NCBI GenBank assembly: GCA_030427935.1 | Contig: JAUICI010000016.1 | Span: 1 to 36,986 of the forward strand | Origin: Bacteroidia bacterium | GTDB taxonomy: Bacteria > Bacteroidota > Bacteroidia > Flavobacteriales_D > Crocinitomicaceae | Direction of reading: 5' to 3' | Length of the DNA stretch: 36,986 nt | Shown here: piece by piece, positions 6,252 to 32,609 of the stretch | How the letters are laid out: the number at the start of each line of letters is the position of its first letter | How positions within the stretch are numbered: the first letter of the stretch is position 1 | Program-made: the position numbers and the translations under genes | Notes under the pieces: generated by a model | What the model was told of the DNA's origin: nothing | The model's database searches: none | The model's input: the letters and a program-made list of their open reading frames with translations, nothing else

Positions 6252-6647
6252 TTACTTTCGATTAAGATAATCCACAACGCCAACGCCCAATATTTGTTCG
6301 CCCAATTGGATTTGATCTTTTGACTTGATTAAATAGGTGATAGAAGAGGAGTTTCCGCACGGTGTAACCCAATCTGCTTCCAAGTATTCAAGGCGAATGG
6401 TCCCCTTTGAAGTATTTCCGATTTGTGTAGTCGACCATAGAAAGGGAATCGTATCCGCTGTAATACAGCCGTCATTCAGCCAAAAACTGGTTGAGTTTAT
6501 CGAATAACCCGTACCATCCGCATTAAAATGCATTTCACCTCCAGTATCTATGTTCCAAGTTCCAGGGAAAATTACCAATGGGTCTGTTTCACAACTAAAT
6601 AAAAACAGAATCCCAGCGATTAAAGGCAGGGCGAATAATTTTTTCAT
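6252..6647 (-). CDS. Small lipoprotein (paralogue of the neighbouring lipoprotein)
   Basis: 131 residues starting MKKLFALPLIAGILFLFSC; the lipobox ends at the Cys of LFSC, so the mature protein is lipid-anchored with an acidic start (CETDP). The ATG at 6647 is preferred to a TTG two codons upstream. The mature part is about 110 residues, with FPGTWNIDTGGEMHFNADG near the start and matching the next gene closely (PGTW-I-GGE, D-TIPF-W-TTQ-G-SKGT-RL-YLE). The FPGTW...GGEL..DG pattern recalls small lipocalin-like lipoproteins in Bacteroidota, but I cannot assign a function. It is separated from its paralogue by that gene's terminator, so it probably has its own promoter. Confidence 0.85.
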   Translation of the reverse strand: MKKLFALPLIAGILFLFSCETDPLVIFPGTWNIDTGGEMHFNADGTGYSINSTSFWLNDGCITADTIPFLWSTTQIGNTSKGTIRLEYLEADWVTPCGNSSSITYLIKSKDQIQLGEQILGVGVVDYLNRK

Positions 6648-6696
6648 AATCAATGAGTTTTGGATGAATTCCTAAATTAATCAAATATTTTGGCAC

Positions 6697-6743: not shown

Positions 6744-7145
6744 TTATTTTCTGCTTAAGTTCTCGATAATTCCGATTCCGAAAACTTCAGCACCAAGTTC
6801 GATCTTGTCTTTTCCTTTGATTGTGTAAGCAATCTCCGTATAAGCCCCACAAGTTGTTACTCCGTCAGACTCAAGATAATCCAATCTCAAAGTTCCTTTT
6901 GAGCTAGATCCAGTTTGTGTTGTCGTCCAATTGAATGGAATTGTATCAGAAGTGATACTCAAACAACCATTCGTGAAGTAGGAACTCGAAGCGTTTAAAG
7001 AATATCCTTTTCCATCCGTTCCGAAATAAAGTTCTCCTCCAGATTCAATCGTCCATGTTCCCGGGAACACCACTTGAGGATCCTTTTCACAGGATACAAA
7101 TAATAAGATTCCAGCAATTAGCGGTAAAAGTAAAAGTCTTTTCAT
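6744..7145 (-). CDS. Small lipoprotein (tandem paralogue)
   Basis: 133 residues starting MKRLLLLPLIAGILLFVSC, with a lipobox ending in FVSC. The mature sequence aligns along its whole length with the neighbour at 6252-6647: FPGTWTIESGGELYFGTDG near the start, ITSDTIPFNWTTTQTGSSSKG in the middle, ending in an IENLSRK tail where the other has VDYLNRK. A tandem duplication is the simplest explanation. Cysteines are present in the mature part of both copies (for example in GCLSI and VTTCG, matching GCITA and VTPCG), suggesting a conserved disulphide outside the cytoplasm. The function is unknown. Confidence 0.87.
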   Translation of the reverse strand: MKRLLLLPLIAGILLFVSCEKDPQVVFPGTWTIESGGELYFGTDGKGYSLNASSSYFTNGCLSITSDTIPFNWTTTQTGSSSKGTLRLDYLESDGVTTCGAYTEIAYTIKGKDKIELGAEVFGIGIIENLSRK

Positions 7146-11151: not shown

Positions 11152-11174
11152 GATCTGTACAAAAGTTTTCCGTT

Positions 11175-11402
11175 TTAGGAATTTCGTACTTTTTCTTTAA
11201 TCTCGATTTTATGCTCTTCAGCATAGACTTTGTCTTGTCGACAATTTCGAATGGCTTTATTCATGCTTGATGAATCATGACCATATTTCTTGCATGGGGG
11301 ACACATGAAAAAATGAAAACGCATGGTCAATTTCTCCCAAAAACTTAGTTGGGTATGATTGGATTTCTCCTTGAGATATGTTGCTTTCTCACATGCTTTC
11401 AT
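11175..11402 (-). CDS. Small soluble zinc-type anti-sigma candidate
   Basis: 75 residues, no signal peptide or membrane helix. Cys4 plus H30-x3-C34-x2-C37 reproduce the zinc-binding anti-sigma (ZAS) pattern, and the N-terminal MKACEKATYLKEKS plus WEKLTMRFHFFMCPPC layout resembles short proteins often encoded after ECF sigma factors in Bacteroidota. The C-terminal half is basic and charged. The gene overlaps the end of the upstream ECF sigma gene by 14 bases, so the two are probably translationally coupled. I infer that it binds and restrains that sigma factor; if so, it is a soluble, possibly redox- or zinc-responsive regulator rather than a membrane sensor. Confidence 0.75.
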   Translation of the reverse strand: MKACEKATYLKEKSNHTQLSFWEKLTMRFHFFMCPPCKKYGHDSSSMNKAIRNCRQDKVYAEEHKIEIKEKVRNS

Positions 11403-17780: not shown

Positions 17781-17893
17781 GTGTTCAATTGTTTGAGTTC
17801 TAAAATTTATTAATAAGGTATGCTTATGTGATAATTGTTACACCAGAAGATGATCATTCTACAGAAATTTGCACTCCAAATGAGAATCTGCAG

Positions 17894-19624
17894 ATGAAAA
17901 AGTTTTTACCCATTTTTGATTGGCTACCCAATTATCAGAAATCCTGGTTAGGAGGGGATTTGTCTGCTGGTCTAACTGTCGGAATTATGCTAATTCCTCA
18001 AGGTATGGCTTATGCCATGATTGCCGGTTTGCCTGCAGTTTATGGTTTGTATGCTGCATTGATTCCACAGGTGATCTATGCCATCTTCGGTACTTCGCGA
18101 CAACTAGCTGTTGGCCCTGTAGCGATGGATTCTTTATTGGTTGCAAGCGGTTTGATGGCTTTTGCATCAACAGGTTCTGATCAGTATATTTTATTAGCAA
18201 TTATTCTCGCACTCATGATGGGTGCCTTCCAATTGCTGATGGGACTTGTCCGAATGGGTTTCTTGGTTAACTTTCTTTCAAAGCCAGTTATTTCGGGTTT
18301 CACCTCTGCGGCAGCAATCATTATCGCTTTTAGTCAGCTGAAACATCTGATAGGGGTTGATATTCCTCGAAATAATAAAATTCATCTACTTCTTAAAGAC
18401 GCCTTTTATGCTTTGGATGAAATTCATTGGCTCACTTTAGGAATTGGAATTGGCGCGATTCTCATTATCAAGTTGATCAAAAGGTATACGCCTAAAATTC
18501 CTGCAGCATTAGTCGTTGTTGTTTTAGGTACGGGAGCAGTTGCTTTGTTGGGTATGCATACGCAGGGGGTTCGAATCGTAGGATCTATTCCAAAAGGATT
18601 TCCCTCTTTTTCGATTCCAGATTTGGCAAACGCACCCATATTAGATTTGATTCCGATAGCCCTGACCTTATCTGTTATTGCTTTCATGGAAGCTTTTTCA
18701 GTGGCCAAGGCGATTGAGGAAAAACACGATGATTATGAAGTGGATGCAAATAAAGAACTGATTGCATTAGGAATGTCAAATATAGTGGGATCCTTTTTTC
18801 AATCTTATCCAACTACGGGTGGGTTTTCAAGAACAGCCGTAAGTGATCAAGCTGGTGCTAAAACAGGCTTGTATTCTGTGATAGCTGCGCTAGTAGTCGC
18901 GCTAACCTTGCTATTCTTTACTCCCTTGTTTTACTATTTGCCTAATGCAGTTTTGGCCGCCATTATCATGGTAGCAGTATCTGGATTGATTGACTTTAAG
19001 CAACCCATTTATCTATGGAGAAATCAGAAAAGTGAATTCTTTTTACTCAATATTACTTTCATAGCAACACTTACAGTTGGCATTGTGACGGGAATTTTAG
19101 TAGGGGTTGTTCTTTCTCTTTTACTGCTCGTTTATCGAACATCCAAACCACATATTGCGGAATTGGTTCGGGTGGGAAACACAGATATTTTCAAGAACAA
19201 GAACCGTTTTGATGATGTACAAGATCGAAATGATATTTTAATCGTTCGTTTTGATGGTCAGGTTTATTTCGGCAATCAGCAATATTTCAGACAACAGATG
19301 AATAATATGATTCGCAATAAAGGGGAAGATCTCAAATTGGTTATACTGAGTGCGGAATCGGTTAACTTTATTGATTCTACAGGTCTAAATATGCTGAAAC
19401 AGTTTGTGAGTGAACTACATGCAAAGGGAATTCAGTTTTACATAAGTGGGGCCATAGGTCCTGTAAGAGATATTATCAATAATTGCGAATTGGTTCAGCT
19501 TATAACACCAGAGAATCAATTTATATCTGTGAACGATGCGATCAAATATTTTGATAATGGAGGGAGTGAAAGTTATGAGTTTCGAAAAATTAGTACACAA
19601 TGCTCATTTGCCGAGAATATATAG
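17894..19624 (+). CDS. SulP family anion transporter with STAS domain
   Basis: 576 residues from the ATG at 17894. Ten to fourteen hydrophobic helices begin with LSAGLTVGIMLIPQGMAYAM and AGLPAVYGLYAALIPQVIYA, the sulphate-transporter signature. SQLKHLIGVDIP and GGFSRTAVSDQAGAKT are further SulP hallmarks. Residues ~455-550 are a cytoplasmic STAS domain with NFIDSTGLNML. Family members carry sulphate, bicarbonate or other anions; specificity is not readable here. An upstream GTG at 17828 extends the frame by 22 residues (TPEDDHSTEICTPNENLQ), but those do not resemble the family N-terminus, whereas MKKFLPIFDWLPNYQKSWL does. A terminator precedes it, so it has its own promoter. Confidence 0.92.
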   Translation: MKKFLPIFDWLPNYQKSWLGGDLSAGLTVGIMLIPQGMAYAMIAGLPAVYGLYAALIPQVIYAIFGTSRQLAVGPVAMDSLLVASGLMAFASTGSDQYILLAIILALMMGAFQLLMGLVRMGFLVNFLSKPVISGFTSAAAIIIAFSQLKHLIGVDIPRNNKIHLLLKDAFYALDEIHWLTLGIGIGAILIIKLIKRYTPKIPAALVVVVLGTGAVALLGMHTQGVRIVGSIPKGFPSFSIPDLANAPILDLIPIALTLSVIAFMEAFSVAKAIEEKHDDYEVDANKELIALGMSNIVGSFFQSYPTTGGFSRTAVSDQAGAKTGLYSVIAALVVALTLLFFTPLFYYLPNAVLAAIIMVAVSGLIDFKQPIYLWRNQKSEFFLLNITFIATLTVGIVTGILVGVVLSLLLLVYRTSKPHIAELVRVGNTDIFKNKNRFDDVQDRNDILIVRFDGQVYFGNQQYFRQQMNNMIRNKGEDLKLVILSAESVNFIDSTGLNMLKQFVSELHAKGIQFYISGAIGPVRDIINNCELVQLITPENQFISVNDAIKYFDNGGSESYEFRKISTQCSFAENI

Positions 19625-19666
19625 TGCTGTGTAACATTTGTTACTTCCAATGATCTAAGTATCAGG

Positions 19667-19674
19667 TAAATTTG
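19667..19674 (+). promoter_or_regulatory. Bacteroidota -7 element for the thioredoxin gene
   Basis: TAAATTTG matches TAnnTTTG exactly, 25 bases before the ATG at 19700. The nearest upstream TTG (19638-19640) is 26 bases away, slightly too far for the usual spacing. Confidence 0.5.
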
Positions 19675-19699
19675 TAGAAGAAATATTTAAGAAAAAAAA

Positions 19700-20056
19700 A
19701 TGGCAACTAGTAAATTAAATTTAGAAACATTCAAAGAGAAGATCTTTGATTATACAAACGGAGGAGATTGGAAATTTGAGGGGGATAATCCTGCTATTAT
19801 AGATTTCTATGCGGATTGGTGTGGACCTTGTAAAATGGTTGCCCCAATATTAGAAGATCTTTCCGAAGAATATCAAGGAAAAGTGGATATCTACAAAGTA
19901 GATACTGAAGTGGAGCAAGAATTGGCGGCCATGTTCAGAATACGTTCAATTCCTTCGATTCTTTTTATACCAAAAGAAGGTAAACCCATGATGCAGGCTG
20001 GTGCTATGTCGGCAAATGGATTTAAAGAAGTAATTGAAAAAGAATTAATTAAATAA
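19700..20056 (+). CDS. Thioredoxin
   Basis: 118 residues with a complete thioredoxin fold. The active site is DWCGPCK (Cys41, Cys44), preceded by IIDFYA and followed by VAPILEDLSEEYQGKVDIYKV and the cis-proline segment RSIPSILF. No signal peptide, so it is cytoplasmic and likely a general disulphide reductase. The first 25 residues (with NGGDWKFEGD) are slightly longer than in E. coli TrxA and are common in Bacteroidota thioredoxins. It has its own -7 element, and the inverted-repeat element at 20065 starts 8 bases after its stop. Confidence 0.95.
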   Translation: MATSKLNLETFKEKIFDYTNGGDWKFEGDNPAIIDFYADWCGPCKMVAPILEDLSEEYQGKVDIYKVDTEVEQELAAMFRIRSIPSILFIPKEGKPMMQAGAMSANGFKEVIEKELIK

Positions 20057-20064
20057 GAATTTAG

Positions 20065-20178
20065 ATAGGAGAGGGGTGATACACAAAAGAGAATTTTACA
20101 AATTAGCTATGTATTGGACGCACTCGCTTTTGTGTTGAATAGTCGTTAGTAGTTTAGTCAAAGCAGCCCTTCTCCTAT
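20065..20178 (+). ncRNA. Putative structured RNA: nested inverted repeats between thioredoxin and cupin genes
   Basis: Three nested pairings are directly visible. An outer stem pairs 20065-20076 (ATAGGAGAGGGG) with 20167-20178 (CCCTTCTCCTAT): 12 consecutive pairs if transcribed on the plus strand, where one is a G-U wobble that would be an A-C mismatch on the other strand. An inner stem pairs ACACAAAAG (20081-20089) with CTTTTGTGT (20127-20135), 9 perfect pairs. A small hairpin AATTT-TAC-AAATT (20092-20104) lies inside. A ~31-base single-stranded-looking segment remains on the 3' side. It fills almost the whole gap between convergent genes and ends 2 bases before the cupin stop. It could be an independent small RNA, a 3'-UTR structure of the thioredoxin message or an elaborate terminator (only a short TTTT follows). 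I cannot match it to a known RNA class. Confidence 0.4.
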
Positions 20179-20179
20179 T

Positions 20180-20656
20180 TTATGTTAATCTTTGAACCAA
20201 TTCTTCTTGATTGGGAAGAATAGCAAGCATTTCCTCTTCGGTATACAACCTGAAATCATCAAAATCAAATCCTGGACTTACTGCACAAGCCACGAAACCA
20301 AAGCCTTTTTCTCCATCGATTAATTCAGAACCAAAAATGTAGTTCGCAGGAACCATTCCTTGATGTTTCTGTCCTTTTGAAAAGTCCGAACCTAAATCAA
20401 AATAAGTATAAACACCTTCAGGACTAATCATGTGAATACGCAATGCATCTCCTTCGTGGTGGTACCATAATTCATCACTTTTTATTGAATGAAAATGGGA
20501 TATATTTCCAGTTTCCAGTAAAAAATAGATGGAAGTTAGATTACTTCGCTCTTTAAGTTCAATTTCTCCTCGATAAGTCTCCTTGAAATAGCCACCTTCA
20601 GGATGGGCTTCTAATCCGTAATTATTTATAAGTTCTGCAATCCGATTCTTTGACAT
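20180..20656 (-). CDS. DUF985 family cupin protein
   Basis: 158 residues. The sequence EAHPEGGYFKETYRG near the start, TSIYFLLETGNISHFHSIKSDELWYHHEG with its His/Glu cluster, and FVACAVSPGFDFDDFRL near the end are the conserved blocks of the DUF985 (Cupin_5) family. These are small single-domain beta-barrels, and the histidines HFH and WYHHEG probably line a metal or ligand pocket. The biochemical role is not established for most members. The gene is divergent from the SPFH gene and convergent with the structured element at 20065. Confidence 0.9.
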   Translation of the reverse strand: MSKNRIAELINNYGLEAHPEGGYFKETYRGEIELKERSNLTSIYFLLETGNISHFHSIKSDELWYHHEGDALRIHMISPEGVYTYFDLGSDFSKGQKHQGMVPANYIFGSELIDGEKGFGFVACAVSPGFDFDDFRLYTEEEMLAILPNQEELVQRLT

Positions 20657-24536: not shown

Positions 24537-27500
24537 TTATGGTTGTTTTATCACATGGATGAATCCTTGTCCTTCGAATTCAGTTCCATTTTGCGCTTTC
24601 GCAGTATAAACATAGGAGTAGACACCGTCAGAAACAGGCTTACCTGTGTTTTGGTTGCTTCCATCCCAGCTATTGCTAGCATTATACATTCCAGGAGTTG
24701 TAACTGGTTCTGTAATCTCGTAAACCACATGACCCCATCTATTTAGGATTGTACAAGTCATTGTTTCCATTCCTTCTGCAATAGGAGCCCATGAATCATT
24801 ATGTCCATCTCCGTTAGGCGTGATCACGTTTGGATCTGTAATCGATGGTTCTGGATAGATTTCGATATTCTGACAAAGTGTGTCATAACATTCGTAATCA
24901 TTAGCCACAACCAAACAGATTGTATAGTCACCCGCCATAAACGTTGTGTCGAATGGTGGCTGTAATGAATCATAACCTATGATGTAAGACTGTTGGTTTG
25001 TATCTGCATCAGAATAGAAAGACCAAGTATTCGTTACTCTGTCAGTCGATCCATCAGTTACAGTTACCGTTACAGGCTCAGTACCATTTACAGGGTTAGC
25101 CGTAAACTGAGCTACTGGATTCAAGGAATCCACATAAACAGAATCACAAGCTAAACATCCGTTTGCATCCATCGCACATAAGGTATACCATCCTGGAGTT
25201 CTATTACCCCAAGTATTGGTGTTGGATCCAAGTCCTGACTGTGAAGCCCACTGGTAAGAAATAGTTCCCGTTCCACCTGCTGCCGTTCCTGAAACAGTTC
25301 CTGAACCTGGGTAAATTCCGTTTCCTCTACAATAAGAAGGCTCTGCACTGATTGTTTGAATCGTCAATGCTGGAGGATCAGTTAAAGTAAACTGCTCTTG
25401 CCAGATACATCCAGCAGAATCTACCATGATTACCGTGTAAGTTCCATCCGACATGATAAATACAGAATCTTGTGCAATCTCACCTGGCTCTGGAGACCAA
25501 TCAAAGTTCACATCTCCTTGCGTTCCTGTAATGTTTACCACTTGAGCCCATCCTGAAGCATCTCCAGCACATAATGGGTTACCAGTAATCACATTTGCAA
25601 TAATATCATCCGGTTGATCTAAGAAAACAGAATCACTCAATGTACATCCGTTTCCATCTTCAATTGTACCGTAGTACCATCCAGTCGGAAGTAATTCCGC
25701 ACCGTTTGAGTTTCCTTGGTTCAATTGAGTTCCTTGATCATCTGTAATCGTGAAAGTATAGTTGTTATCACCACCAGTAGCATTGATATAAACCGAACCA
25801 TTGGACTGCTCAAAACAAATTGGTTGAGAAGTTGTAAAGTTCATAGCTAATGGATCTGGCTCATTTACAACAATGATAAAGTTGGATACACATCCGATTT
25901 GATCCACAATATCAACAGACCAAGTAGAACCGTAAAGGTTACATAATTGGTGGTTAACACCTCCTGCTGTAATTACACCAGTTTCAGTAATTGGTGCACC
26001 AGACTGTGGAGTCCAAATAATATCTAATGGGAATGGTCCGTCATTATCATCCACATTTACCAATTCAATACAACCATCTTGAGCCCCACCACAAGTTACA
26101 TCATCTACATTGAATGAAGCAATGGTTGGAGGTGTTCCAAGATCAGAACTAATAAATGCTGTAGTATCTAAAGAACATCCTGTTGCATTGTCTACAATGT
26201 TAATTTGGAAAGTCCCTTGGAAAAGTCCAGTAAACTGACCAGTTTGGTTACTCACAGACTGAGGTCCTTGACCACCGTTAATTGTAAAGTCGTAGTTACC
26301 TGAAACTGGGTTCATGATGATTTCAATTTCTCCATCTTGTGAGTTTGTCACACAAGAAGTAATATCTGTAATATTAATTGCAGTTACATCAACAGTTCCG
26401 ATCGTTACTCTTACTGAGTCAAGTAGCGTATAACAATCATCTGATGCCTCGATATAATACCAGGCAGTTGCACCAGGTGAGAAATCTGCATTCGCAGACG
26501 TATAAAGAACTGTTCCTTGATCGTCTGTCCATTCATATGTGATTGCACCGTTTGCGTTATTCAACTGTGCTGTGAATGAAGCGGTTTGACCAGGACAAAT
26601 TGTTTGTGAGTTACCTCCAGGAATTGTTAAAGTAGGAGATGGATTCACTGTAATTGTCATGTCATCAGTTGAGATACAACCATTCAAATCAGCAGTAACT
26701 GTATAAGTTGTTGTACCAGGAGTTGCTTGCGTAAAACTTTGACCATCGGTTACACCGTTATCCCAAGAGATATTTGCTCCATCTGGGTTGTCTGCAATTA
26801 AAGTAACCAATTCGTCAAAACAAACCGTTAAATCTGGCCCTGCATCCACAGAAGGAAGTGGGTTAATAGTTATTGTAATTTGCTCAACAGTTACACAAGA
26901 AGGATCAGAAGGATCCTCAGCTCTAATATAATAAGTAGAAGTACCTGTTTGTGAAATCACTGTTGATCCTAATGGATTCACATCATTCGCTGCATCGGCT
27001 GCAGAAGAGTGATATGAAATTACAGCACCACCTGGGTTACCAACACCAGTTGAGAAGTCAATTGTATTTGGCTCACAAACAGCTGCTGGAGGCGTAATGT
27101 TGATTACAGGGTTAGAACATGTAACACAAGGAGGAACGATTACTTCAACTGTATCTGGACAGTCGTCATCGTTTTGTCCATATAAATAATAAGTACCACC
27201 AACATTACCATCAACGGTAACCGGAGTACCAGAAGTATTATTAACTAATCCTGTTGGCTCCCACATATAAGCAGTACCACCAGAGGCAGTAATATCAACG
27301 TTTCCTTGAGCATCACAAGCTCCAACCGAAGCTTGGATATTTGAACCATTTACTACAGTTACAATCATCGTATCTTGAACACCACCACAGTTGTTTACTA
27401 GGGCTGGTGCATCTCCAATAATCATATAAGTACCTACTGCCGGAGGTGTACACACTACTGTATCACCAGTTGATTGGTTTAAGTGTGGTCCCGACCAGTT

Positions 27501-28550
27501 AACTGGGTTTCCGTCTTGTCCAGTTGCAATAATTGTAGCAGATGAACCTAAACAAATTGTTTGGTCACCACCTACAGATAAAGAACCTTCTACACCAGAA
27601 ACCGCTTGGATTACATAATCACATATATCTCCTGCATATCCATCGACCATTAAGTAGTATGTGTTTCCAGGTATTAAACCAGTTCCAGTAAAAGAATTCG
27701 TACCAACAGGCATTGGAGATTCACATCCAAGGTCAGTTACTGTTCCAGAACCACAGTTTCCTGGTAGTGAGAACATGAAAAACTGAATACCTGAGTTACA
27801 ATCATTGATTGGGTCCGTTACATCTACATTTAACTGCACAGTAGAAGCTGAAGCAGTAAATGTCATGAACGAGTTATTCTCAATAGATCCACAGAAAGGA
27901 GTTTCCAAACCAGACCATGCCTGATCGGAGTATCCTGAAGTAGAACCACAATATCCATCAAAAGTACAGATTGGAGTTGCATTTGCACAATCATCCCCAG
28001 CTGCAGGTGTGTTTCCACAATCGTAAGAGGTCGAGTTTGATCCTCCTTCAGCTGCATCATAAACACAAAGAGAAAAAGTCCCTTGCTCTAGTGGGTCACC
28101 AGGGAATACAAATACAGGTGGTTCGTAATTATCCCACACTCTTATAAAGATGTATGTTCCTGGAGTTAATCCCGTTAATTGCATGAAAGGCATGAGCGCA
28201 TTCGTAGAACCATCCAAATCACAAGCGATTTCTGTAAATGGTCCAGCACATGTAGCTGCTGTATAAACGGCTGCATTAATATTTGATAAAGATCCAGCCT
28301 GTGCATCCACATTCACTACTCCTGAAGGAGGAACGATTCCTACAAACCACACATCTTCTCCGTTATAGTTTTGACATGATGGGTTTGCAACAGTTGATCC
28401 AGTTGCTCCAAGATTATCGTATTGAACGTAACTACAAGATGGTCCAATATTCACCGGATAGGCTCCACATGGATCATCATTAACTGGTTGAGCTAAAACG
28501 CTTCCTGAAATAAATAAAATCAGTGAAGCTAAAATTAATTTCATATTCAT
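24537..28550 (-). CDS. Giant secreted surface protein, type IX secretion C-terminal domain
   Basis: 1337 residues with signal peptide MNMKLILASLILFISGSVLA. The N-terminus has two Cys-containing PPC-like beta domains (~22-165, with DPCGAYPV and GEDVWFVGIVPPSG; ~185-320, with DDCANATPICTFDGYCG). Several PKD/Ig-like repeats follow (TICLGSSATI, GPDLTVCFDELVTL, QTICPGQTASF), then SprB-like repeats (DDVTCGGAQDGCIELVN, QPICFEQSNGSVYINATGG, NPLCAGDASG). The last ~97 residues (NVITPNGDGHNDSWAP, NRWGHVVYEI, GKPVSDGVYSYVYTA, GQGFIHVIKQP) are the gliding motility-associated C-terminal domain, a T9SS sorting signal, so the protein is exported to the cell surface. It is probably an adhesin or matrix protein. 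It starts 13 bases after the small secreted gene upstream and shares its last ~700 residues with the gene at 29148. Confidence 0.93.
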   Translation of the reverse strand: MNMKLILASLILFISGSVLAQPVNDDPCGAYPVNIGPSCSYVQYDNLGATGSTVANPSCQNYNGEDVWFVGIVPPSGVVNVDAQAGSLSNINAAVYTAATCAGPFTEIACDLDGSTNALMPFMQLTGLTPGTYIFIRVWDNYEPPVFVFPGDPLEQGTFSLCVYDAAEGGSNSTSYDCGNTPAAGDDCANATPICTFDGYCGSTSGYSDQAWSGLETPFCGSIENNSFMTFTASASTVQLNVDVTDPINDCNSGIQFFMFSLPGNCGSGTVTDLGCESPMPVGTNSFTGTGLIPGNTYYLMVDGYAGDICDYVIQAVSGVEGSLSVGGDQTICLGSSATIIATGQDGNPVNWSGPHLNQSTGDTVVCTPPAVGTYMIIGDAPALVNNCGGVQDTMIVTVVNGSNIQASVGACDAQGNVDITASGGTAYMWEPTGLVNNTSGTPVTVDGNVGGTYYLYGQNDDDCPDTVEVIVPPCVTCSNPVINITPPAAVCEPNTIDFSTGVGNPGGAVISYHSSAADAANDVNPLGSTVISQTGTSTYYIRAEDPSDPSCVTVEQITITINPLPSVDAGPDLTVCFDELVTLIADNPDGANISWDNGVTDGQSFTQATPGTTTYTVTADLNGCISTDDMTITVNPSPTLTIPGGNSQTICPGQTASFTAQLNNANGAITYEWTDDQGTVLYTSANADFSPGATAWYYIEASDDCYTLLDSVRVTIGTVDVTAINITDITSCVTNSQDGEIEIIMNPVSGNYDFTINGGQGPQSVSNQTGQFTGLFQGTFQINIVDNATGCSLDTTAFISSDLGTPPTIASFNVDDVTCGGAQDGCIELVNVDDNDGPFPLDIIWTPQSGAPITETGVITAGGVNHQLCNLYGSTWSVDIVDQIGCVSNFIIVVNEPDPLAMNFTTSQPICFEQSNGSVYINATGGDNNYTFTITDDQGTQLNQGNSNGAELLPTGWYYGTIEDGNGCTLSDSVFLDQPDDIIANVITGNPLCAGDASGWAQVVNITGTQGDVNFDWSPEPGEIAQDSVFIMSDGTYTVIMVDSAGCIWQEQFTLTDPPALTIQTISAEPSYCRGNGIYPGSGTVSGTAAGGTGTISYQWASQSGLGSNTNTWGNRTPGWYTLCAMDANGCLACDSVYVDSLNPVAQFTANPVNGTEPVTVTVTDGSTDRVTNTWSFYSDADTNQQSYIIGYDSLQPPFDTTFMAGDYTICLVVANDYECYDTLCQNIEIYPEPSITDPNVITPNGDGHNDSWAPIAEGMETMTCTILNRWGHVVYEITEPVTTPGMYNASNSWDGSNQNTGKPVSDGVYSYVYTAKAQNGTEFEGQGFIHVIKQP

Positions 28551-29147: not shown

Positions 29148-32100
29148 TTAAGGATTTTTGATCACATGTATAAAGCCTTGACCTTCGAATTCATCACCGT
29201 TTAAAGCGGTGGCTGTGTAGACGAAAGAGTATACACCATCCGCTACCGGTTTTCCAGTATTCGAATTTGTTCCATCCCATGTATCGGTTGGACTAGTCAA
29301 CTCAAAGACTTTATTACCCCATCTATTAAAGATTGTACAATTTAATTCTGACATACCTTCTGTTATTGGAGCCCATTCATCGTTATGTCCATCACCATTA
29401 GGTGTAATTACGTTTGGTAAGTTCGAGGATGGAACCGGGAATAAATCCAGAATCACGCACATGGTATCATAGCATTCAAAATCGTTGGATACAACTAAAC
29501 AGATCGCATGGTCTCCATCTTGTGTGAAAGTAGTGTCGAACGGAGCTTGAAGCGAATCATAACCAATGATGTATGAATTCGAAGTTGTGTCTCCGGCAGG
29601 ACCGATGAATGTCCAGCTGTTTGTTACTCTGTTTTCAGATGAATCCGTTACGGTAACTGTCACTGGAACTGTTCCGGATAATGGATCAGCAGTAAACATA
29701 GCTGCCGGATTCAATGAATCCACATAAATTGAGTCGGTTACAACACAGTTGTTTTGATCGGTTGCAAACAAGGTATACCATCCAGGAATTCGGTTACCCC
29801 ATGTATTGGTATTTGATGAAGCTCCCATTCCTGTCCAGCTATAGGTAATTGTTCCTGTACCACCTGCAGCAGTACCTGATACCGTTCCTGAACCTGGATA
29901 AATTCCATTTCCTCTACAGTACGAGGGCTCAGACGAGATTGTAAGAATATAGATAGAATCTGGATCATCTAAAGTGAATGAATACTGCCAGATACATCCA
30001 ACCGAATCAACAATTGTAACTGTATGGTTTCCTGCGTTCAAGAATCTCGCATAGTCTGTAGAATCACTTGTTGGGTTCCAAGAATACTGTACGGGTCCTT
30101 GCGCATTGAAAACTTGATCAACTAGAGCTTCACCAGAAGCTTGTCCATAACATTTTGGATCTGTTAATAAGATCGAAGCAAACATCGAGTCTGGTTGATC
30201 CAAGAAGATAGAATCTCCTAGATAACAACCATTGTCATCTGTAATCGCAGTGTAATACCATCCAGTTGGAATCAACTCTGCGGCATTTGAATTATTAGAG
30301 TTAATCTGATTGCTATCCGCATCATAAATTGTAAAAGTATATGGAGTAGTTCCTCCAGTTCCGTTAATGTAAACGGATCCATTTGACTGACCATAACATA
30401 AAGGCTCGTCAGAAGTTAAACCTAAACTAATTGGATCTGGTTCGTTGATTGTTACCGTGAATGTGTGTACACAACCAATTTGGTCTGCAATAGAAACCGT
30501 CCATGAAGATCCATATAAATTTGTATTTGAATGTGTTTGAGGATCAGTAGTAATAACTCCAGTCTCAATAATTGGGGCACCTGAAGTTGGTGTCCAAGTT
30601 ACATCATATGGCAAGTTTGCCGATGTTCCAGAAATATCAACCAATTCTATCGATCCATTCATGTCACCAGGACAAGTTACGTGCGTTACATTAAACGATG
30701 CTGGTTCTGGTGGTGTTCCAACTATAGCACCAATGGTAACAACAGTATCTAATTCACATCCTGTATTCACATCTTCAATGTTTACTTGGTAAGCACCGTT
30801 AAACAATCCTGTAAACACACCAGTTGTATTTGAAGCAGTTGTTGCAGGAATACCCCCATTAATATTGAAGTTAAAGTTTCCTACGGCAGCAGTTGGGTTC
30901 GTAATAATTTCAATTTCTCCATCGTCATTTGTACCCACACAAGAAGTAATGTCTTGAATGTTGATGGCAGTAACATCAACTGTTCCCATTAAAACTCTCA
31001 TGGAATCAATTACTGAGTTACAGTTGTCTGTTACTTGAAGATAAATCCAAGTATCTACAGTTGGAGAAACATCCCAAGTTGCTCCTGTGCTTTCAACTGG
31101 GTTGATCGAATTGTTATAAGACCATTCGTAATTAACCGTACCCGTGTTACCTGTAACGTTCGGTGTGATTGTAATTGTTTGTCCCGGACAAATTGTCTGT
31201 GTCGCACCTCCAGAGAATGTAATCGATGGTGGAGCAGGGGAGTTTACAGTTACATCAACTGTTCCTTGAGCAGTTACACCACATCCATCAGTTACGTCAA
31301 CTGTATAGGTTGTTGTACCTGTTGTTGGCGGAACTGAAACTGTAGCTCCAGTACCTTGTGCTCCCCAATCATATGTAAAAGGAGGAGTACCTGCGTCCGT
31401 GGAAGCAGAAATATCAATATCACCTGGAGGACAAGTTAAAGTCGTATCTGAAGTCACAACATTGAATGTTGGAGCATCAATAATCCAAATTGTTCCGTTC
31501 AGAGGAATTGTGTCCCCACAAGCAGAAATAATATAAGTTCCTAAAGTAATGGATTCTGGTCCTTCAGTCATACCATCCTGAATTGGCGTAATCGATACTG
31601 TAACCGAATCCACACCGTCAGGCATGCAAATAGAATCAGGAAGAACATTGTAATCTACACCAGGAGTTGCGGTACCACCCACAGCAAGTGGGTAACATAC
31701 ATCTCCAGTTGCATCATCTCTTGTAAATACAAGCAAGGCTTCTGTACATCCTTCTACAATCACTGAGTCAGTTGAAATTGTCCCGTCAGGGTTGATTGGA
31801 GATAAACTTACACTTGGACCTGTAGAAACAAATGATTCAGCTTCTAAGAATACCCCAGTATCGTAAATTCCATCTAGGTTATCGGCAAGTGCCATTTTAA
31901 TATGATAAGTTTCACCACATTGAAGTGGAGCTGCAATCGCCGTTAATGAATTGGTATAACCTTGAAAAGCCATTGGTGAACCAGTGTTCCAGTTAAAGTA
32001 TTGACAGTTTACACAAGGTCCAGCATTTCCAGTACCATTATTAATTGTTGCAATAGATACTTCCGTCGCTGTTCCAGGAACCAAAGCAATATTGATTGAG

Positions 32101-32609
32101 TTATTTGAAAATGGTCCAGTAATTCCAGGTCCACTTAGAAAGAATCCGAAAATATCGGCGTAACCAATAAATGTATTGTACTCTTCAGAACCGAAGGAAT
32201 AATTAAATAAAGCGGTATCGTTTGTCGCTAAAAAGTCAAACTCAATAACGATGGCGTCATTCGTTGCCGTACCATTGTTGATTTGAAGTAGATCTGGATC
32301 TGCACCACCGTTTAAGTCGGTACTTGCAAAAGCTCCTGCTGTTGCACAATCAACCGCGTTACCAGTTGACATTACAATACCGGTTGCAATTGGGAATCCA
32401 GTTCCTTGATCATCAAAATAACCTACTTGTGGATTCACCACGTTTGCAGGGGCACCATTTACGGTAACATTTGAGATTTGAACTCCAGGAGCTAAGACGT
32501 TAGTTATAAGGTCTTGCACAGTTTGGGTGTTTGTAACCGTAAACTGGGCACTAACATAGGAACTCATAAACATCATGGTTCCAAAAACGAATAAGGCAAT
32601 TCTTTTCAT
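29148..32609 (-). CDS. Giant secreted surface protein: choice-of-anchor L, repeats, type IX secretion C-terminal domain
   Basis: 1153 residues with signal peptide MKRIALFVFGTMMFMSSYVSA. Residues ~22-260 are a choice-of-anchor L domain (SFGSEEYNTFIGYADIFGFF at ~140, FNWNTGSPMAFQGYTN, YHIKMALADNLDGIYDTGVF). A Calx-beta-like segment follows (~265-360, GTATPGVDYNVLPDSICMP, DGMTEGPESITLGTY), then PKD/Ig-like and SprB-like repeats (FNVTHVTCPGDMNGSIELVD, EPLCYGQSNGSVYINGTGG). From ~1065 the gliding motility-associated C-terminal domain (NVITPNGDGHNDEWAP, NRWGNKVFEL, GQGFIHVIKNP) marks it for T9SS export. Everything from about residue 455 on is a paralogue of the other giant protein's C-terminal ~700 residues, while the N-terminal domains differ. 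It is monocistronic, with a terminator downstream. Confidence 0.93.
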   Translation of the reverse strand: MKRIALFVFGTMMFMSSYVSAQFTVTNTQTVQDLITNVLAPGVQISNVTVNGAPANVVNPQVGYFDDQGTGFPIATGIVMSTGNAVDCATAGAFASTDLNGGADPDLLQINNGTATNDAIVIEFDFLATNDTALFNYSFGSEEYNTFIGYADIFGFFLSGPGITGPFSNNSINIALVPGTATEVSIATINNGTGNAGPCVNCQYFNWNTGSPMAFQGYTNSLTAIAAPLQCGETYHIKMALADNLDGIYDTGVFLEAESFVSTGPSVSLSPINPDGTISTDSVIVEGCTEALLVFTRDDATGDVCYPLAVGGTATPGVDYNVLPDSICMPDGVDSVTVSITPIQDGMTEGPESITLGTYIISACGDTIPLNGTIWIIDAPTFNVVTSDTTLTCPPGDIDISASTDAGTPPFTYDWGAQGTGATVSVPPTTGTTTYTVDVTDGCGVTAQGTVDVTVNSPAPPSITFSGGATQTICPGQTITITPNVTGNTGTVNYEWSYNNSINPVESTGATWDVSPTVDTWIYLQVTDNCNSVIDSMRVLMGTVDVTAINIQDITSCVGTNDDGEIEIITNPTAAVGNFNFNINGGIPATTASNTTGVFTGLFNGAYQVNIEDVNTGCELDTVVTIGAIVGTPPEPASFNVTHVTCPGDMNGSIELVDISGTSANLPYDVTWTPTSGAPIIETGVITTDPQTHSNTNLYGSSWTVSIADQIGCVHTFTVTINEPDPISLGLTSDEPLCYGQSNGSVYINGTGGTTPYTFTIYDADSNQINSNNSNAAELIPTGWYYTAITDDNGCYLGDSIFLDQPDSMFASILLTDPKCYGQASGEALVDQVFNAQGPVQYSWNPTSDSTDYARFLNAGNHTVTIVDSVGCIWQYSFTLDDPDSIYILTISSEPSYCRGNGIYPGSGTVSGTAAGGTGTITYSWTGMGASSNTNTWGNRIPGWYTLFATDQNNCVVTDSIYVDSLNPAAMFTADPLSGTVPVTVTVTDSSENRVTNSWTFIGPAGDTTSNSYIIGYDSLQAPFDTTFTQDGDHAICLVVSNDFECYDTMCVILDLFPVPSSNLPNVITPNGDGHNDEWAPITEGMSELNCTIFNRWGNKVFELTSPTDTWDGTNSNTGKPVADGVYSFVYTATALNGDEFEGQGFIHVIKNP

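Follow-up and report, generated by a model that had tools for sequence, protein, structure and literature searches.

Small RNAs (sRNAs) derived from untranslated regions (UTRs) exist in Bacteroides, according to the portions of two studies drawn on here (PMC7366714, PMC10994844). In B. thetaiotaomicron, 27 of the 49 high-confidence intergenic sRNAs with a terminator are called strain-specific in the relevant part of one of these studies (PMC7366714), and the portion of a third source used here gives the consensus of the -7 promoter box as TAnnTTTG (PMC9723704). The element described here is a concrete, conserved, and unclassified candidate for a structured RNA beside a core redox gene, the thioredoxin gene trx, of a poorly studied lineage. 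It lies in a window of 36,986 nucleotides, i.e., the whole stretch of DNA that was analysed.

An outer stem (P1) and an inner stem (P2) together occupy the whole gap between trx and a convergent cupin gene. The features of the locus are given below; G001 is the sole other member of the genus among the 39 genomes (the window's own included) in which relatives were sought.

19631..19644, no strand: palindrome GTAAC-N4-GTTAC, likely operator, exactly 22 bases before the trx TAnnTTTG box in both species
19667..19674, + strand: TAAATTTG, mismatch-free TAnnTTTG box 5' of trx (G001: TACCTTTG, at 66709)
19700..20056, + strand: thioredoxin gene, trx (PF00085, E 4.9e-24)
20065..20076, + strand: 5' arm of outer stem P1, ATAGGAGAGGGG; 12/12 pairs identical in G001
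20081..20089, + strand: 5' arm of inner stem P2, ACACAAAAG; 8/9 pairs kept in G001 on the hand alignment
20105..20124, + strand: conserved loop AGCTATGTA(A)TTGGACGCACT, the same in G001 save one extra A
20105..20110, + strand: 5' strand of candidate pseudoknot P3, AGCTAT, pairing in both sequences
20127..20135, + strand: 3' arm of inner stem P2, CTTTTGTGT
20149..20154, + strand: 3' strand of candidate pseudoknot P3, GTAGTT (G001: ATAGTT)
20167..20178, + strand: 3' arm of outer stem P1, CCCTTCTCCTAT, the last T of which opens the T run
20180..20656, - strand: Cupin_5 (DUF985) gene, facing the element (PF06172, E 1.2e-43)

A first-pass annotation, made from the letters of the window, had placed a nested structure in a convergent gap. 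The gap is indeed convergent, with the trx stop codon at 20054-20056 (+) and the cupin stop codon at 20180-20182 (-), the latter overlapping the T-rich end of the element. The element starts (G at 20064) 7 bases past the trx stop in the window and 11 bases past it in G001. The outer stem is also as described, with 12 pairs (20065-20076/20167-20178) that include one G-U pair (20073 with 20170), and this G-U pair is present in both species. All nine pairs described for P2 exist in the window sequence, but they do not belong to the predicted nested minimum there; 31 bases (20136-20166) lie between the 3' arm of P2 and that of P1. The small innermost hairpin of the same description, AATTT/AAATT (20092-20096/20100-20104), is not kept: in G001 the AATTT faces ATATC. 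A short coding ORF was rejected, as 0 of 12 frames are open across the gap, and indels of 1, 2, and 7 between the window and G001 break the frame. Upstream, a SulP sulfate permease with a STAS domain (17828-19624) lies between an MscS-like gene and trx, while in G001 trx directly follows the MscS-like gene. Farther along the window, two large neighbouring proteins on the - strand (24537-28550 and 29148-32609) carry type IX secretion signal domains (CHU_C) together with SprB-type repeats (sub-threshold in Pfam for the first protein), and their C-terminal parts look very similar by eye. The CHU_C domains and the large number of Bacteroidota among the trx relatives suggest that the DNA belongs to Bacteroidota.

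G001 has the same trx/cupin arrangement, a homologous element in the same gap, and the same loop, AGCUAUGUA(A)UUGGACGCACU. Between the window and G001, four genes of the block show saturation at their fourfold-degenerate sites (115/329 identical, 35%). In the gap, 100 of 117 ungapped positions are identical, and 90 of the 115 gap-free columns of a hand alignment are invariant. With the aligner used for comparing gaps, in which gaps are cheap, ungapped identity is 0.85 for the element gap versus 0.62-0.88 in ten other gaps of the block. Measured over the longer length, the identity of the element gap is 0.74, fourth of 11 and behind three divergent gaps (0.84, 0.81, and 0.76); the other convergent gaps have 0.69 (11152-11388, which holds an unlisted 75-aa frame), 0.50, and 0.40. 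The 75-aa frame (11175-11402, -) has a CPPC motif and no Pfam match, its gap is conserved in G001 (164/202 ungapped positions), and it possibly encodes a small anti-sigma-like protein; the gene directly preceding it is presumably sigma-factor-like, judging from its letters. Tandem paralogous lipoprotein-like genes at 6252-6653 and 6744-7145 (-), also without a Pfam match, both best match one and the same place on contig C33 of G001, which suggests a duplication in the window or a loss in G001. Beyond the genus, the five closest trx orthologues (L004-L008, 62-73% identity) have different sequence 3' of trx and lack the element, which is probably narrowly distributed. Relatives without both stems, named in the first-pass annotation as evidence against the structure, are thus found only outside the genus and not in the congener.

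The two stems differ in what the comparison with G001 offers. P1 is unchanged, whereas 8 of the 9 P2 pairs are kept in G001, two of them through changes on both sides. From the window to G001, one A-U pair becomes U-A, another becomes G-C, and a third becomes a U-U mismatch. These counts come from an alignment adjusted by hand to P2, and so biased towards it, because MAFFT's own alignments leave the two species' P2 arms out of register. When the partner columns are slid by 1-3 positions, 47.6-70.0% of cells are paired, versus 97.6% in register. Of 500 letter shuffles, 131 attain as much covariation as observed, two rows leaving little room for a higher score. In a simple simulation of arms that carry three and two changes, respectively, at least two compensations arise in 1.7% of runs and at least 8 pairs are kept in 5.4%. 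The compensatory changes that the first-pass annotation had proposed to look for in the aligned gap are seen on this alignment, two in P2 in one congener, and they support the stem, although two sequences cannot prove covariation. Because the sister species keeps the fold despite mutations in one stem, the element is probably real, and confidence in a conserved structured RNA is high.

The position of the putative promoter bears on how such an RNA would be made. Within the stretches scanned (19625-20200 in the window and 66596-67260 in G001), each species has a single mismatch-free TAnnTTTG box, in both cases 5' of trx, and neither has one beside the element; boxes with one mismatch are frequent. 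No TTG occurs 15-22 bases upstream of the trx boxes in either species. Copies of the GTAAC-N4-GTTAC palindrome number 4 in the window's genome and 2 in G001, against 13 in each for a reversed control, and only the trx copy falls outside a frame. A guess at its nature would be a Crp/Fnr-type site. Given the positions of the box and the palindrome, trx looks like its own transcription unit with an operator, and the element looks like the 3' end of that unit. Since the mismatch-free box lies 5' of trx and none lies beside the element, the element is most likely the 3'UTR of the trx mRNA rather than a free-standing sRNA.

An sRNA gene in its own right, acting in trans, driven by a separate promoter within the 3' end of trx and using the UUGGACGCACU loop as seed, is an unlikely reading with several points in its favour. 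The exposed loop is conserved, the stem ends in T, and a narrow distribution would be usual, given the strain-specific sRNAs reported for B. thetaiotaomicron in the part of the source cited above (PMC7366714). Complements of the loop (AGTGCGTCCAAT, at most one mismatch) number 13 in the window's genome and 10 in G001, versus 3 and 2 for the reversed control, but these counts include the elements themselves and the excess may reflect codon use. The 23 sites consist of the 2 elements and 21 that overlap frames of at least 80 aa, and inspection by eye showed no orthologous pair among them. The absence of a mismatch-free box beside the element in both species tells against this reading, as does the distance of about 100 bases between the element in G001 and the nearest upstream one-mismatch box on the + strand.

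The downstream end of P1 resembles a terminator in part. Counting the last base of the stem, the T run after P1 on the + strand is 4 bases long in the window and 7 bases long in G001, whereas no T run lies 3' of the stem on the - strand. A terminator scan that allowed loops of 3-8 found no site, and P1 encloses 90 bases (20077-20166) instead of a short terminator loop. That the element is a mere terminator for convergent genes, in which P1 ends the transcription of trx (and perhaps of the cupin gene) and the interior is incidental, is somewhat less likely again than a separate sRNA gene. The 12-pair stem spans the convergent gap from end to end and has its T run on the + strand, as a terminator might, but an interior of about 90 bases is not accounted for, the conservation of the inner loop and the compensatory changes in P2 would need another reason, and the - strand has no T run after the stem.

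The conserved loop may take part in a further helix. Its AGCUAU can pair with RUAGUU on the 3' side at 6 of 6 positions in both the window and G001, with one U-A/U-G change; a register chosen by eye, AAAUUA/UAGUUU, was dropped in favour of this one. Among 2000 column shuffles, about 2% give a common helix of at least 6 pairs, and 18% give one of at least 5. Judged from the two sequences, P3 would form a possible H-type-like pseudoknot inside P1. The most far-reaching reading, and a distinctly speculative one, is that a new pseudoknotted RNA class of one genus, probably in Bacteroidota, is built into the trx transcript. On that account, trx, its dedicated operator palindrome, and a 3' RNA released with its UUGGACGCACU loop exposed would be one regulatory unit, with the RNA relaying the redox signal to other targets.

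Folding energies set the element apart from shuffled sequence on both strands of the window. The + strand has a z of -3.10 and the - strand a z of -3.19, with 1 of 200 dinucleotide shuffles as good in each case; an equally unusual - strand is expected from a long inverted repeat. In G001, the + strand has a z of -3.06 (about -3.1) and the - strand one of -1.13 (about -1.1). The plus-strand preference that had been read from the G-U pair is therefore seen by fold z in G001 but not in the window. Of 300 mononucleotide shuffles of the gap, 16 contain a perfect stem of at least 12 pairs, counting G-U, and the longest has 14; the longest stem in the gap itself also has 14. The pairs of P1 have probabilities of 0.96-1.0 in the window and from 0.96 down to 0.35, at the innermost pairs, in G001. 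Those of P2 reach just 0.03-0.04 in the window, where the nested minimum (-33.8 kcal/mol) has a different inner fold and lies 3.3 kcal/mol below the fold with P1 and P2 enforced (-30.5 kcal/mol); the paired P2 positions of G001 reach 0.53-0.57. A two-state RNA, in which a ligand, a protein, or a pairing RNA switches between the nested fold of the window (with a GACGCA/UGUGUU apical helix) and the P2/P3 pseudoknot, would suit the use of conserved bases by both helices and the closeness of the two energies in the window before any pseudoknot bonus. It is nevertheless very unlikely, as G001 favours P2 and has a shorter apical alternative, no downstream gene on the + strand would be controlled, and two sequences cannot separate the alternatives.

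The distribution of the element was examined with a covariance model (R1) built from two sequences, the window element and that of G001. R1 scores 127 bits in the window's genome and 142 bits in G001, both of which are training rows, and it finds no further credible match in samples of 240 family, 299 order, 395 class, and 385 phylum genomes; these samples overlap, and above 40 genomes the filters were strict and only part of the candidates was scored. An independent blastn search of 100 family genomes with the G001 element finds the window's genome at E 9.7e-13; in the remaining 98, the best match has an E of 0.004 over 27 bases. Two second matches of R1 are taken as chance, each lying inside a coding frame: one of 24.5 bits in the window's genome (contig C280, in a frame presumed from its protein letters to be glycosyltransferase-like) and one of 27.4 bits in another genome (G772, contig C180, in a frame presumed on the same grounds to be aminotransferase-like). 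Four matches in the order sample (E 0.057-0.085) were set aside, two being short P1-only hairpins, one having P1 largely broken, and one holding the inner part only. A mobile or repeat element of the MITE/REP type was also rejected, since each genome has one copy at the same site (blastn; R1 at E up to 0.01). Nothing above 16.4 bits was found at 80 trx loci of a contig collection and at L004-L008; the scan of the collection listed no trx above 71% identity, and the collection may omit records close to the window. Neither blastn against phages and plasmids nor the exact loop pattern in viral contigs gave a match.

Known families were compared through Rfam 15. The window has no match at gathering scores, the best up to E 10 being 16 bits against a cut-off of 96.1, and the G001 element has four weak matches, the best with 16.3 bits against a cut-off of 40. 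Nor does the element fit a riboswitch, as the next downstream gene (the cupin gene) faces it. RF00013 (6S) was found in 0 of 7 genomes (its control was positive in 5 of 14), and RF01685 (6S-Flavo) in 0 of 7, with its control silent; among 119 class genomes, RF01685 appears in 3, all below the cut-off and in families (f33 and f65) other than the window's. A 6S-type RNA of this lineage is hardly credible: the length is near that of 6S-Flavo (108 model positions) and neither RF00013 nor RF01685 was found in the window's genome or G001, but no 6S match occurs among the Rfam matches up to E 10, no credible match turned up in the remaining 238 genomes of the family (unlikely for a housekeeping RNA), and the G001 fold is without a symmetric central bubble.

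A structured 3'UTR with a terminator-like end of trx, and with possible release of an sRNA, is on balance the account that best fits the sequences. Transcription would start at the TAnnTTTG promoter 5' of trx, continue through the gene, and end in the T-rich stretch 3' of P1. P1 would act as the 3'-closing stem, terminator-like and protecting against exonucleases, and P2, inside P1, would display the conserved loop. There AGCUAU may pair with RUAGUU as a pseudoknot, leaving UUGGACGCACU single-stranded. The most likely role of the domain is to stabilise the trx message and bring it to an end. Cleavage may also free it as an sRNA of about 115 nt, whose exposed loop would then pair with a partner or be bound by one. 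The initial reading of a lineage-specific sRNA or a plus-strand 3'UTR element is the best supported (a homologue in G001, two compensations, no Rfam family, no credible copy outside the genus, and a plus-strand bias of folding in G001), minus its innermost hairpin. The element offers an exact fold for probing. If it is released as an sRNA, thioredoxin control would extend from protein to RNA; if it is a terminator only, it would suggest that selection keeps long structured 3' ends in these bacteria.

Among known systems, 6S-Flavo RNA (RF01685) is of the same size class but differs in sequence and structure line and gives no match. Bacteroidetes candidates that are now Rfam families (such as RF01685, RF01692, RF01693, RF01694, and RF01705) do not match the element either, although it is structured and narrowly distributed like the lineage-specific candidate RNAs described for Bacteroidetes in the part of that work used here (PMC2864571). 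Like intrinsic terminators, it has a strong stem with T residues after it on the strand that encodes trx; in contrast to them, its stem encloses about 90 bases, a conserved hairpin among them, in place of a short loop, and the T run of the window is short. With the 3'UTR-derived sRNAs of Bacteroides, the element was compared in sequence through Rfam. As a putative RNA, it would resemble these sRNAs, as the portions of the two studies present them (PMC7366714, PMC10994844), in its location where a coding gene ends, in a 3' end shared with that gene, and in its small size.
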